From Akkermansia sp. (GTDB lineage: Bacteria > Verrucomicrobiota > Verrucomicrobiia > Verrucomicrobiales > Akkermansiaceae), in the NCBI GenBank assembly GCA_024405435.1, contig JAKSOU010000003.1, positions 1 to 64,000 of the forward strand: a DNA stretch of 64,000 nt, in the 5' to 3' direction. Shown here piece after piece: positions 5,829 through 51,585 of this stretch. The position numbers and the translations under genes are program-made. Under the pieces are notes generated by a model, which saw only the letters and a list, made by a program, of their open reading frames with translations, searched no databases and was not told the DNA's origin. Every line of letters begins with the position of its first letter. The stretch's first letter is position 1.

Positions 5829-7727
5829 TCAGGTGCGGATGATGAGGATGGTGATGTCGTCGTTCTGCTCGTTGCCGCGGGTGAAGCGCTTGAGGTCGGC
5901 GGAGAGGCGGTCGGTGGCCTCCCTGGCGGACATTTCCGGGGTGATGGTTCGTGCCCAGGCCATGAGGCGGTCCTCGCCGTACTGGTTCTTGTCGGGGTCT
6001 TCGGCCTCGGTCACGCCGTCGGTGTACATCACGATGGTGTCGCCCTCCTGCAGCTGGCGGCTCTGCATCTCGAACTGGAAGTCGTCCATCACGCCCACCA
6101 CCAGGTTGGAGATGAGGGGCAGGAAGTATGGTTCGCCGTTGCGGGGGATGATCACGGGTGCGTTGTGGCCGGCGTTGCAGTAGTCCAGCACATGCGTTTC
6201 CGTGTTGAAGCGGCCCAGCAGGAGGGTGACGAACATGCCGCTCTCGTTGTTCTCGGTGAGGCTGCGGTTGATCTTGCCCACCATGTCGCTGAGCAGCACG
6301 CCGTGGCCGCCCACAAAGCGGAGGGAGCTGCGGGTGATGGCCATGATGAGCGCGGCGGACACGCCCTTGCCGGAGACATCTCCCACGGCGAAGTAGAGCA
6401 TGTTCTTGCGGGAGGTGACATCGTACAAATCGCCGCCCACCTCCTTGGCGGGGTGGATGTCCGCATACACATCCGCCAGCGTGATGTCCGCAAAGTTCTT
6501 GGGCAGCATCTGCATCTGGATGTCGTGTGCGATGTTGAGCTCGCTTTCCAGGCGCTGCTTGCCGGCGGTGGTGGTTTTCAAATCCTGGATGTACTGTGTG
6601 AGCGAGCCCTGCATGTAGTCGAAGGAGTCGCGCAGCTGCTTGATTTCATCATCGGTCTTGATTTCCGGCAGCTTGGTGTGGAAGTTTCCCTTGGCAATGC
6701 TCATGGCGCTCTCCGAGAACTTGCGCAGCGGGGAGGCCGCGCGCTCGATGGACGCCCGGCACAGCAGGAACAGCCCGAACAGGCCCGCCAGCGCCACCGT
6801 GAGCACCACCAGGTTCATTTCCGTGGTGCGCGCCAGCACGGAGCTGTACGGGCAGATGATGGAGGCGGACCAGCCGTTGGAGAGCGGGCCGTACACGCCG
6901 ATGTAGGATTTGCCATCGTCCTCGAATTCGGCGGAGCCCTTGAGGCCCTTGACCATGTTGAGGGAGGCCTCCCAGGCGCGCTTGTCCTCCTTCTCCGCGG
7001 CCACGGAGAAGATGGTGGCGCCGCGCAGCCAGGAGCGGTCCGGCGCGGAGACGTAGGAGCCGTTGCGGCTGATGAGGACGGTGAAGGAATCCTTGTACGG
7101 GTGGATGGAATCGAACTTTTGGGAGAGCCACTCCAGCGAGATGTCCGCTGTCACCACGGCGTACAGCTTGCCGTCCTTGTCGAATAGCGGCCGGCTGTAC
7201 GTGCAGACCCACTGCTCGCCGCCCTCCTCGTCGTAGTACGGTTCCGTCCAGCACGCCTTCTTGGTGAGGGTGGGTATCTGGAACCAGTCCATCAGGAAGT
7301 AGTCGTACGATTCGCTGCCCAGGTGCGTGCTTTTCACCTCCCCCGTTTCCGCGTCTATCCAGCTGTATGGGGCGTAGTAGTGCCGGCCCGCGCGGTAGTC
7401 CGCCACAAAGGCCACGGCGCAGCCCACGATGTGCTCGTTGGATTCCACCAGCTTGCGCGTGAGATTCTGCAGGTAGGTGTCGTCGTCCTCGTGGCCCTCC
7501 ACCATCCAGGAGGTATTGGTGGCGGCCACCTCCACGCTGTGCAGCTCCTTCTCCACGTCTGCTATGGTGGCATCCAGCAGGTTGGCGGCGGACTTGGTGG
7601 CCTCGTCCGCGATGAGGTGGCGGCAGGTCTGCGCCACGATGGCCAGCACGCCGACGAAGAGGACGGAGATGAGCGCGATGACGATGAGGCTCAACCTCTG
7701 GGCAAAGGATTTGCGGTGCTTACTCAT
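5829..7727 (-). CDS. Membrane sensor phosphatase: Cache - HAMP - PP2C (SpoIIE/RsbU type)
   Basis: 632-residue transmembrane Ser/Thr phosphatase. A first membrane helix at about 12-34 is followed by a periplasmic double-Cache sensor domain (about 40-300; YAPYSWIDAETGEV and TYSRPLFDKDGKLYAVVTAD are Cache-like). A second helix at about 305-330 leads to a HAMP linker (to about 385) and a cytoplasmic PP2C domain of SpoIIE/RsbU type. The metal-binding motifs are present: GGDLYDV, DVSGKGVSAALIM, YTDGVTEAED and NDDITILI. Such proteins dephosphorylate anti-sigma-factor antagonists in partner-switching pathways; no antagonist or anti-sigma kinase is in this window. Its start overlaps the end of the binding-protein gene by 8 nt, so the two are translationally coupled and the binding protein is a plausible ligand-presenting partner (inference). 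Confidence 0.9.
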   Translation of the reverse strand: MSKHRKSFAQRLSLIVIALISVLFVGVLAIVAQTCRHLIADEATKSAANLLDATIADVEKELHSVEVAATNTSWMVEGHEDDDTYLQNLTRKLVESNEHIVGCAVAFVADYRAGRHYYAPYSWIDAETGEVKSTHLGSESYDYFLMDWFQIPTLTKKACWTEPYYDEEGGEQWVCTYSRPLFDKDGKLYAVVTADISLEWLSQKFDSIHPYKDSFTVLISRNGSYVSAPDRSWLRGATIFSVAAEKEDKRAWEASLNMVKGLKGSAEFEDDGKSYIGVYGPLSNGWSASIICPYSSVLARTTEMNLVVLTVALAGLFGLFLLCRASIERAASPLRKFSESAMSIAKGNFHTKLPEIKTDDEIKQLRDSFDYMQGSLTQYIQDLKTTTAGKQRLESELNIAHDIQMQMLPKNFADITLADVYADIHPAKEVGGDLYDVTSRKNMLYFAVGDVSGKGVSAALIMAITRSSLRFVGGHGVLLSDMVGKINRSLTENNESGMFVTLLLGRFNTETHVLDYCNAGHNAPVIIPRNGEPYFLPLISNLVVGVMDDFQFEMQSRQLQEGDTIVMYTDGVTEAEDPDKNQYGEDRLMAWARTITPEMSAREATDRLSADLKRFTRGNEQNDDITILIIRT

Positions 7728-8679
7728 GGGGTATCATCTCACGGTAGTTGACCTTCTTCATGATGACGGCGGCGCGGTACATGGCGTCCACCAGCTTGTT
7801 GAACACCTCCTCCGTGACCCGGGCGTAATCCCGCCTGCCGGTGTCCGGGTTCACTTGCAGGCGCAGGCACTCCTTGAGCATCATGCGCTCCATGACGGGG
7901 TTGCTGCTCACGTGGCCGGCCTCGACATACTTGTGGGTGATGGCGCAGGCCTCCTCCGGGTGCGCGGCGGCGTAGTCCCAGCCCTTCTTGGTTGCGCGGA
8001 CGAAGGCGTCCAGGGTGGGCTTGTTGTCCCTGTAGTATTGCTCGGTGACGTAGAGGCCGTCCTCCGGCGCCCTGAGGACGTGGTCGTGGCAGCGCAGCAC
8101 GTTTTCCTCCGGGATGCGGCCCATGGAGAGCAGCAGGCCCAGGTACTCGTTGTAGCTGTAGCAGAGCGTGGCATCCACCGCGCCGTAGATGAACAGGTTC
8201 ACGCTGCGGCTGATGGGCACCCACTCGATATCCAGGTTGAACTCGTGGCTCAGCACGTCGAACAGCTCGGAGTGGCCGGCACGCCACCGTGCAATGTGCA
8301 TGTGGTTCAAATCCTTCAGCTCCGGGATGGGGCGGTGCGCCACCACCCACAGCCCGCTGATCTGGGTGACCTGGCAGAAGTTGACAATCGGCGCGCCCTG
8401 TGCGCGTGCAACGATGGCCTGCATGAGCTGCAGGCCCGCGATGTGCGCCCTGCCCTCCTTCAGGAGATCCAGGGATGTACCCTTGGAGTTGATGCCGACA
8501 TGGTTGAAGGTGACGTTGAGCCCCTCCTGCTGGAAAAAGCCCTTTTCCTTGGCCACGTAGTACCCGGCGAACTGCGCCTGCGGAATCCACTGCGGCGCAA
8601 AAACAACGTCCTTCAGCTCTGCATGCAGAACGGAAAGCGCGCCGGCAACGAGTGTGATGAGCGTCAGCAGCCTAGTCAC
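7720..8679 (-). CDS. Periplasmic substrate-binding protein, NMT1/THI5-like (SsuA/ThiY superfamily)
   Basis: 319 residues with a signal peptide (MTRLLTLITLVAGALSVLHA, cleavage expected before Glu21). The fold signature is FAPQWIPQAQFAGYYVAKEKGFF, split as APQWIPQAQFAGYY and AKEKGFFQQEGLNV, characteristic of the NMT1/THI5-like binding proteins that bind pyrimidine precursors, sulfonates or similar small molecules. No ABC permease or ATPase gene is nearby. Instead the gene overlaps a Cache-PP2C sensor by 8 nt, which suggests the protein feeds a signalling pathway rather than a transporter. The start codon is GTG at 8679, only 6 nt after a TAGAAT -10 box, so the mRNA should be leaderless. The ligand cannot be read from the sequence. 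Confidence 0.88.
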   Translation of the reverse strand: MTRLLTLITLVAGALSVLHAELKDVVFAPQWIPQAQFAGYYVAKEKGFFQQEGLNVTFNHVGINSKGTSLDLLKEGRAHIAGLQLMQAIVARAQGAPIVNFCQVTQISGLWVVAHRPIPELKDLNHMHIARWRAGHSELFDVLSHEFNLDIEWVPISRSVNLFIYGAVDATLCYSYNEYLGLLLSMGRIPEENVLRCHDHVLRAPEDGLYVTEQYYRDNKPTLDAFVRATKKGWDYAAAHPEEACAITHKYVEAGHVSSNPVMERMMLKECLRLQVNPDTGRRDYARVTEEVFNKLVDAMYRAAVIMKKVNYREMIPHE

Positions 8680-8685
8680 GGCGGC

Positions 8686-8714
8686 ATTCTACCACACCCC
8701 CGCGCGAGCGGCAA
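8686..8714 (-). promoter_or_regulatory. Predicted promoter of the binding-protein/PP2C operon
   Basis: TTGCCG (8709-8714), 17-nt spacer, TAGAAT (8686-8691). Only 6 nt separate the -10 box from the GTG start at 8679, implying transcription starts at or next to the start codon. Confidence 0.6.
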
Positions 8715-49908: not shown

Positions 49909-49937
49909 TTGAAAAAAGGGAGCGTTCGTGGTTAAAT
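49909..49937 (+). promoter_or_regulatory. Predicted promoter of the PAS-PP2C gene
   Basis: TTGAAA (49909-49914), 17-nt spacer, TTAAAT (49932-49937). The ATG at 49936 overlaps the -10 box, so the ATG at 49945 (7 nt after the box) is the better start. Confidence 0.6.
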
Positions 49938-49944
49938 GGAGGGA

Positions 49945-51585
49945 ATGAGCAATGAGCAAGGCAGTGCGCCCGGCAACGGCAAAACCGTGCACGGGGTGTT
50001 CAAGTGGGAGATGGTGCGCAAGGCGTTGCGCGCGGCTGAGGAAGGCGCGTACTGCTGGGAAATCGGCGAGGGGCAGATCTACTACACGGAGCAGTGCATG
50101 CGCATGCTCGGCCTGCCGCTCACCGAGTGGGCTCCCAACATCTTCACGGAACCGGACCTCACCATCCACGCGGAGGACCGCCAGTTCTTCGTCAACGCGG
50201 TGCAGCGCTTCCTGCAAAGCCCCGGCAGCGCGCCCCTGCGCGTGGAGGTGCGCCTGCTCAACCTGCGCTCCCGCGGCTGGCGCTGGATCCGCGTGAACGG
50301 CCTGCTGGAGCAGGATGCCGCCCACAAGCCCATTCGCCTGGTGGGCGTGTGGGTGGATATCACCCGCCGCAAGATGGCGGACCTGCACGCCATGGAGGAC
50401 CGCGACCTCTTCCGCACATTGATCAACTACCTGCCGGACAGCATCTACTTCAAGAACCGCGAATCGCGCTTCGTAGTGGCAAACGAGGCCACCGCGCGCA
50501 AGATGCACGTGCGCACGCCGTCCGACCTCATCGGCAGCCGCGACGAGGACTTCTTCGATGCCGAGATGAGCTCCGTGGCACGCGGCGAGGAGCGCGACAT
50601 CATGTCCACCGGAAGGCCCATCACCAACCGCATCCACCACGAACCCTGGAAGGAGGGTCACTCCACCTGGACCCGCATCTCCAAATTCCCCTGGTACGCG
50701 TCCGACGGCTCCGTCAAGGGCATCGTCGGCATCTCCTCGGATGTGACGGAGCTCATCGAGGCGCAGCACCGCTACCGCGACATCGCGGGCAAACTGGACG
50801 AGCGCAACCGCGCGCTGGAGAAGGAAATCGACCTGGCGCGCGAGGTGCAGCAGGCGCTCCAGCCCGTCAGCATCCCGGACCGCGTGTGGCGGCCGGACGG
50901 CGGCACCGCGCGCCGCGCCCACTTCCACCAGGTGTACATGCCCTCCACCGGCGTGGCGGGCGATTGTTTCGGGGTGTTCCCCGTGGGCAGTTCCGGGCTG
51001 GGCATGATCATCTGCGATGTGATGGGGCACGGCGTGCGCGCCGCGCTCATCGCCTCCATGCTGCGCGGGCTCATGGAGCAGGCGGCCAGCCTGGCGAACA
51101 CGCCCGGCCTCCTGCTTTCCTCGCTCAACCGCCAGTTGTCGCGCATCTTCACGCAGGCCAACATCACCATGTTCGCCTCCGCCTGCTACGTGTACATCGA
51201 TTTGGACAAGAAGCGGCTCACGCTCTCCGGCGCGGGGCACCCCGCCCCCATCATCCAGATGCCGGACGGGCGGGCGTACCTGCCGCCCATCCCGCGCTCG
51301 CCCGCGCTCGGGCTCATCGAGAACGCCCCGTTCCGCGAAAGCCAAATTCCCCTGGAGCCCGGCATGAAGCTCATGCTCTACACCGACGGCATCACCGAGG
51401 CGCGCAACGAATCCGGCGACGAGCTGGGGGCGCAGCGCATCATGGACGCCCTGGCCGCCGGGAAGCCGGAAACCGTTCAGGGCATGCTGGAAACCGCGCT
51501 GGAGGCCATGCGCCACTTCACGGGCAACGCCGGGCAGGACGACGACATCTGCCTGCTGGGCGTGCAGTTCACGGAGGGTGAGTGA
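49945..51585 (+). CDS. Cytoplasmic PAS-PAS-PP2C (RsbU/SpoIIE-type) phosphatase
   Basis: 546 residues, no membrane segment. Two PAS domains (about 20-150, ending in LVGVWVDITRRKMADLHAME; and about 155-285, with LPDSIYFKNRESRFVVANEA and GIVGISSDVTELIEAQHRY) precede a short coiled coil (KLDERNRALEKEIDLAREVQ) and a SpoIIE-type PP2C domain. That domain has the metal-site blocks GVAGDCFGVF, CDVMGHGVRAALIASMLRG, YTDGITEARNESGDE and GQDDDICLLGV. The family activates anti-anti-sigma factors in partner switching; here the input is an intracellular signal sensed by PAS. It is the second PP2C of this type in the window, after the membrane one at 5.8 kb. Confidence 0.92.
   Translation: MSNEQGSAPGNGKTVHGVFKWEMVRKALRAAEEGAYCWEIGEGQIYYTEQCMRMLGLPLTEWAPNIFTEPDLTIHAEDRQFFVNAVQRFLQSPGSAPLRVEVRLLNLRSRGWRWIRVNGLLEQDAAHKPIRLVGVWVDITRRKMADLHAMEDRDLFRTLINYLPDSIYFKNRESRFVVANEATARKMHVRTPSDLIGSRDEDFFDAEMSSVARGEERDIMSTGRPITNRIHHEPWKEGHSTWTRISKFPWYASDGSVKGIVGISSDVTELIEAQHRYRDIAGKLDERNRALEKEIDLAREVQQALQPVSIPDRVWRPDGGTARRAHFHQVYMPSTGVAGDCFGVFPVGSSGLGMIICDVMGHGVRAALIASMLRGLMEQAASLANTPGLLLSSLNRQLSRIFTQANITMFASACYVYIDLDKKRLTLSGAGHPAPIIQMPDGRAYLPPIPRSPALGLIENAPFRESQIPLEPGMKLMLYTDGITEARNESGDELGAQRIMDALAAGKPETVQGMLETALEAMRHFTGNAGQDDDICLLGVQFTEGE

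Follow-up and report, generated by a model that had tools for sequence, protein, structure and literature searches.

A periplasmic NMT1-type binding protein paired with a Cache-HAMP-PP2C phosphatase in Akkermansia: a probable sensory unit with relatives in three phyla

Why would the gene for a periplasmic binding protein directly precede that for a signalling phosphatase, with no transporter gene nearby? The question is raised by contig JAKSOU010000003.1 of an Akkermansia sp. genome (assembly GCA_024405435.1; 2.53 Mb, Akkermansia-like), of which the first 64,000 nucleotides of the forward strand were analysed and are referred to here as the window. On its minus strand, an NMT1/THI5-like periplasmic solute-binding protein (SBP) of 319 amino acids with a GTG start (7720..8679; Pfam NMT1, E 9e-31) is followed by a sensor phosphatase of 632 amino acids with an ATG start and a dCache-HAMP-PP2C (SpoIIE-type) architecture by Pfam (5829..7727). 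A preliminary description had stated that the two genes overlap by 8 nt and lack a neighbouring ATP-binding cassette (ABC) permease or ATPase. Both statements are borne out: the SBP stop and phosphatase start share ATGAGTAA at 7720..7727 (minus strand), the coding-strand junction reading ...CCCC ATGAGTAA GCAC, and our local ABC profile has no match in the 5 kb on either side of the two genes.

The two genes probably encode one sensory unit, consisting of the SBP and its dCache-HAMP-PP2C partner, with a partner-switch output. Good support for the sensory reading comes from sequence comparison, namely from the conserved pairing, the split from transporter paralogs, the intact catalytic residues, the swapping of outputs around a constant SBP-Cache element, and the neighbourhood or co-occurrence of RsbW and STAS genes.

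Conservation of the pair and the question of transport

Within Akkermansia, the SBP is present in five of 76 genomes and the dCache phosphatase lies directly downstream in all five. Among near relatives the pair is under purifying selection, with ratios of nonsynonymous to synonymous substitution rates (dN/dS, NG86) of 0.16-0.35 for the SBP and 0.12-0.18 for the phosphatase. In a more distant genome (G056; SBP identity 55%), the pair still adjoins a gene that reads as aconitase-like. Beyond the genus, SBP matches were found in 46 of 393 Bacteroidales genomes (E 1e-12), 57 of 124 Cloacimonadota genomes and 58 of 387 genomes in a Verrucomicrobiota sample. The Bacteroidales search yielded 48 places, of which 41 were inspected (37 free-standing and four of 11 long fused frames). 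A dCache sensor lies directly downstream at 34 of the 37 free-standing places; of the three exceptions, L098 and L112 are cut off by the contig end and L122 has no sensor. Counted in the 34 is L096 (7872-8867), where a single in-frame TGA divides the SBP and the downstream half adjoins an intact phosphatase frame. In Cloacimonadota, the search gave 53 strong places, two of which are parts of the same gene, and a further 37 weak ones; the phosphatase lies directly downstream of the SBP at all 22 strong places examined. The Verrucomicrobiota search gave 71 places, 69 outside Akkermansia, and the 20 inspected, taken from the best-scoring single-domain ones, all have a dCache sensor. At most loci a profile of our own identified the sensor, and the partners in the window, L006, L007, L113, L217, L218, L220 and L235 were put through Pfam. 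The pair is thus conserved well outside the window's genome. Chance adjacency can be set aside, since the pairing recurs throughout the SBP-bearing Akkermansia genomes and in three phyla (Bacteroidota, Cloacimonadota and Verrucomicrobiota) and the Akkermansia copies are under purifying selection. Its recurrence points to a widespread kind of sensor.

An orphan transport protein could also account for a lone SBP gene. It would feed an ABC permease encoded elsewhere, and its place beside the phosphatase would reflect co-regulation only. SBPs can serve unlinked permeases, and the window's genome has five BPD_transp_1 matches, all on contigs other than the pair's, with permeases on C138, C105 and C60. 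However, an NMT1 SBP and an ATPase are already encoded next to the C60 permease. Same-strand ABC ATPase genes within 5 kb of the sensory-type SBP were seen at none of five Akkermansia, two of 37 Bacteroidales, none of 22 Cloacimonadota and none of 20 other Verrucomicrobiota places, and no sensory-type SBP among those examined is directly on an ABC gene. The weaker Cloacimonadota NMT1 paralogs serve as a control: 12 of 12 examined are directly followed by an ABC ATPase and none of the 12 by a dCache sensor. In the SBP tree, one branch (Shimodaira-Hasegawa-like approximate likelihood ratio test, SH-aLRT, 99) parts 62 sensor-linked rows from 30 ABC-linked, histidine kinase-fused or other rows; the tree was made before the Verrucomicrobiota loci L217-L236 were fetched, and it also omits L021, L096 (interrupted by its stop) and the second copies at some Geobacter-type loci. 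Together, the 12 ABC-linked paralogs, the tree and the C60 protein argue that gene neighbourhood divides NMT1 SBPs into a sensory and a transport subfamily. Neither the swapping of outputs nor the preferential co-divergence with the Cache domain described below would be expected of an orphan transport protein. As an account of the pair it is therefore very improbable, and it was rejected on the strength of the Cloacimonadota control.

At a greater distance from the pair, an ABC set of another kind (ABC_sub_bind, BPD_transp_2, ABC_tran), which includes a separate binding protein, is present in several Bacteroidales loci. In L097 (11632-16591), the locus covered by the Pfam check of this set, and likewise in L093, L094, L115 and L121, these genes and one for a STAS-containing protein come after the RsbW-STAS genes.

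A constant sensor beside a variable output

The phosphatase has Pfam matches to MCP-like_PDC_1 (1e-27), dCache_1 (7e-15), HAMP (4e-9) and SpoIIE (1e-48). All of its segments lie on the minus strand. The extracytoplasmic dCache/MCP-like_PDC_1 sensor domain (amino acids 42-287; 6867..7604) gave an AlphaFold2 model with a predicted local distance difference test score (pLDDT) of 84.8; its top Foldseek matches are the mmHK1 sensor domains 3li9/3lib, and its nearest folds include ligand-binding chemoreceptor domains. Next come the HAMP domain (amino acids 331-377; 6597..6737), a linker (378-443; 6399..6596) with the stretch AHDIQMQMLP ahead of the phosphatase domain, and the SpoIIE/PP2C catalytic domain (444-632; 5832..6398). 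The linker residue D433 and the domain residues D450, D570 and D624, which we take to be the metal-binding catalytic aspartates of PPM/SpoIIE phosphatases, are kept in at least 67 of 68 paired homologs. Against the NCBIfam SiaA equivalog (NF038263) the phosphatase scores 58.7, below the cut-off of 700. The linker appears to resemble the RsbU-type coiled-coil linkers discussed in an eLife 2025 paper (PMC12143880).

Across the loci, the SBP keeps a Cache sensor at its side, and the output is variable. At eight Bacteroidales loci the partner is a dCache-HAMP-GAF-histidine kinase and the next gene encodes a receiver-SpoIIE protein (L113 by Pfam, which shows the HAMP and GAF domains there; all eight by phmmer). 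In two Verrucomicrobiota loci (L217, L220) the partner is a dCache-MCP chemoreceptor, and in L235 the Cache part alone was found. These swaps fit the argument, made in PMC12143880, that coiled-coil linkers make sensor domains exchangeable among PPM phosphatases, kinases and cyclases.

A mirror-tree comparison of 68 pairs, which omits the eight kinase-type and two MCP-type loci, L235, L096 and L109, gave its highest correlation between the SBP and the Cache domain (r 0.77). The partial correlation of SBP and Cache was 0.56 when PP2C was controlled for, and that of SBP and PP2C was 0.20 when Cache was; among 53 dereplicated pairs the values were 0.51 and 0.18. The SBP distances track those of the Cache domain better than those of the phosphatase domain.

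Partner switching and a candidate alarmone output

The output of the pair is likely partner switching, because RsbW-type and STAS genes are often found near it. Within 5 kb and on the same strand, each occurs at 25 of 37 Bacteroidales places; the respective counts are three and two of 22 in Cloacimonadota and five and six of 20 in other Verrucomicrobiota. The [ST]SxGL motif is kept in all 40 single STAS proteins checked. One Bacteroidales locus, L006, unites RelA-like, HD/APH, DAGK-RsbW, SBP, PP2C and STAS genes in one run. Its DAGK-RsbW gene (L006:3513-4814) encodes a diacylglycerol-kinase/YegS-like enzyme fused to an RsbW-type HATPase domain. A gene of about 220 amino acids resembling a class III cyclase lies near the SBP, PP2C, RsbW and STAS genes in seven Bacteroidales loci (L102, L103, L106, L107, L108, L110 and L112; PF00211 E 1e-4 for that of L112).

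The closest counterparts of the L006 STAS and RsbW genes in the window's genome sit on contig C116, in an operon of STAS, RsbW, RelA-like, HD-APH and tyrosine-phosphatase-like genes. The RelA-like protein has a RelA_SpoT domain (PF04607, 2e-16), and its nearest structures in the PDB are GTP pyrophosphokinases. Its RIK, TDxxGxR, FGYxSLHY and ExQxR columns, presumably the RelA-type catalytic motifs, are largely conserved in 15 rows (one pair being near-identical copies), and the HD motifs of the operon family are intact as well. By domain and motifs, it is a candidate small alarmone synthetase. In the Akkermansia HD-APH protein of L047 (7281-9029), an insert has a weak STAS-like match (E 0.0098, below cut-off), which is not reported in the shorter L006 version.

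The distribution of the RelA-like gene suggests a link to the pair. Of 76 Akkermansia genomes, the gene occurs in the five that have the SBP and, as a 29% match, in G008; the five are related and hence do not represent independent events. In Bacteroidales, nine of 393 genomes have a strong relative (at least 53% identity; 12 at E 1e-20), and the SBP is present in five of those nine, which are its five best matches. At seven of the nine strong loci, PP2C, RsbW and STAS are in the same gene run as RelA and HD, and the window's PP2C groups (SH-aLRT 100) with that of L006 and four other RelA-operon PP2Cs. The link is loosened by two RelA loci without PP2C, RsbW and STAS (L171, L172) and by the Cloacimonadota genomes G077 and G078, in which no RelA relative was found. 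RelA as a universal partner of the SBP was rejected, given nine Bacteroidales genomes with a strong RelA (five with the SBP) against 46 with the SBP. A PADLOC scan of six proteins, which bears on an anti-phage reading, gave one match, of the RelA-like protein to the candidate family PDC-S33 (E 3.6e-17).

From these elements a mechanism may be proposed. Once exported, the SBP would bind a small solute and dock on its partner's dCache domain. By way of the membrane helices, HAMP domain and linker, the resulting change could then reach the PP2C domain in the cytoplasm and switch it. The switched phosphatase would act on a STAS protein, removing the phosphate placed there by an RsbW-type kinase. 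The physical contact between SBP and Cache, the ligand, the direction of the response and the targets are all putative. The best candidate partners in the window's genome would be the C116 STAS and RsbW proteins, encoded with the RelA-like synthetase and the HD hydrolase. The preliminary description suggested that the Cache domain reads the SBP in its liganded form and that the SBP thereby controls partner switching; we infer the same, with added strength from the output swapping, the co-divergence and the neighbouring RsbW and STAS genes. The arguments against a sensory pair raised there, regular adjacency of homologs to ABC genes and lack of conservation elsewhere, found no support.

Taken one step further, the SBP, through the Cache-PP2C protein, might set STAS phosphorylation, and STAS and the RsbW-type kinase might gate the small RelA-type synthetase and the HD hydrolase with its fused APH-like kinase domain, so that the SBP would control alarmone metabolism. 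This would make the whole a SiaABCD-like partner switch with a (p)ppGpp-type nucleotide output instead of c-di-GMP. We hold this joint proposal tentatively; the alarmone link, though a reasonable extension of the sensory reading, is unproven. Within that reading, a conventional sigma-factor switch, with RsbW as an anti-sigma factor and the RelA/HD linkage incidental, is also conceivable. In its favour, the STAS protein scores above the cut-off of ant_ant_sig, the HATPase protein hits RsbW models at scores under their cut-offs, and classical partner switches control sigma factors (PMC8256260). The shared gene run at seven of nine strong Bacteroidales RelA loci and the co-occurrence of RelA and SBP in all five Akkermansia genomes would be coincidental under such a switch, which we regard as possible though somewhat doubtful.

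Several observations weigh against the sensory unit as a whole. The Akkermansia STAS/RsbW/RelA operon lies apart from the pair, and the genome holds two further SpoIIE-type genes. One free-standing SBP, that of L122, lacks a sensor beside it. The SBP and the Cache domain are both extracytoplasmic, and this shared constraint could by itself raise their co-divergence and account for part of the correlation. Close kin of the window's phosphatase, the RelA-operon PP2Cs of L167-L170, have no SBP gene beside them, and no SBP match (E 1e-12) was found in G159 and G418, two of the genomes concerned; the SBP is therefore not obligatory for such a phosphatase. These same-clade phosphatases also favour the idea that ligand binding falls to the Cache domain itself, so that sensing would be independent of the SBP, a mere modulator or scavenger. 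Many dCache domains bind ligands directly, and the nearest folds of this one include domains that do so. Such an arrangement would leave unexplained why the SBP is kept beside Cache sensors of differing output in three phyla, and we consider it unlikely.

Binding-protein residues, known systems and minor features

The SBP passes the curated cut-off of PF09084 (NMT1/THI5-like) with 107.9 bits against 20.5, its NMT1 domain spanning 7948..8577 (minus strand). AlphaFold2 (pLDDT 90.4) and Foldseek uphold the periplasmic-binding fold, the top matches being a thiamin-bound SBP (4nmy), a ThiY-type FAMP-binding protein (3ix1) and Thi5. The fold is alike, yet identity to ThiY and Thi5 is only about 15-19%, and near the N-terminal strand the SBP has QxQF where ThiY-like ABC paralogs have NxNH. 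By column comparison, QxQFAG (amino acids 34-39), E178 and W234 are common to free-standing sensory SBPs and histidine kinase-fused NMT1 domains; the matching columns read NxNHTG, G and Y in most of the 12 Cloacimonadota ABC paralogs compared. Since these 12 controls are related sequences and the permease-adjacent L009 has an NEP motif, the residues are no clean general marker. The differences suggest that the ligand may not be that of ThiY-like transport proteins. In L010, L011 and L123, NMT1 domains are fused to histidine kinases with receiver domains.

SBPs that signal through a membrane receptor are familiar from LuxP-LuxQ and NspS-MbaA; MbaA and LuxQ have a dCache/PDC-type fold, and the SBP families of both systems differ from the NMT1 type. 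At the gene level the window pair has the same two parts, an SBP gene and a Cache-type membrane receptor. The outputs of those systems are cyclic di-GMP (c-di-GMP) enzymes or a histidine kinase, whereas that of the pair is a PP2C phosphatase. In NspS-MbaA (Vibrio cholerae), a dedicated SBP likewise signals through its receptor and does not feed a transporter. Among the receptors that binding proteins activate, a 2022 survey (PMC9602780) names chemoreceptors, sensor kinases, c-di-GMP enzymes and Ser/Thr kinases; that list has no phosphatase. No description of an SBP-PP2C pair was found in the open-access literature searched. SBP-driven receptors are already known; an SBP-paired Cache receptor with a phosphatase output would be a new variant.

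On the output side, the closest mechanistic relative is SiaABCD of Pseudomonas aeruginosa, in which, according to PMC7647112, the PP2C-type SiaA and the kinase SiaB set SiaC phosphorylation, proposed to control the nucleotide second-messenger enzyme SiaD. The words periplasmic, dCache and solute-binding are absent from the available text of that paper, and the SiaABCD effector is a diguanylate cyclase, in contrast to the RelA/HD candidate here. The RsbU/RsbW/RsbV systems of Bacillus and Chlamydia likewise combine a SpoIIE-type PP2C, an HATPase_c_2 kinase and a STAS protein with an acceptor motif; their classical targets are sigma factors, and what sets the window's system apart is its SBP and Cache input. 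If correct, the sensory reading would add a class of receptors, in which an SBP drives a protein phosphatase, to three phyla including gut species, and would give a genetic handle on the roles of partner switches in Bacteroidota, Cloacimonadota and Verrucomicrobiota. The RelA/HD link, if true, would tie an extracellular solute to alarmone control.

The remaining features are minor. The first 20 amino acids of the SBP (8620..8679, minus strand; ...VLHA|ELK) read as a likely Sec signal peptide. Directly upstream, a consensus scan gives a weak promoter-like match, TTGCCG-17-TAGAAT (8686..8714, minus strand; 9/12). One of the further SpoIIE-type phosphatases lies in the window at 49936-51585 (plus strand) and has PAS domains, and the third, weaker SpoIIE-type gene of the genome is on C93. 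In L087 and L088, as read from the open reading frames, the pair stands between ribosomal-protein-like genes and an enolase-like gene.

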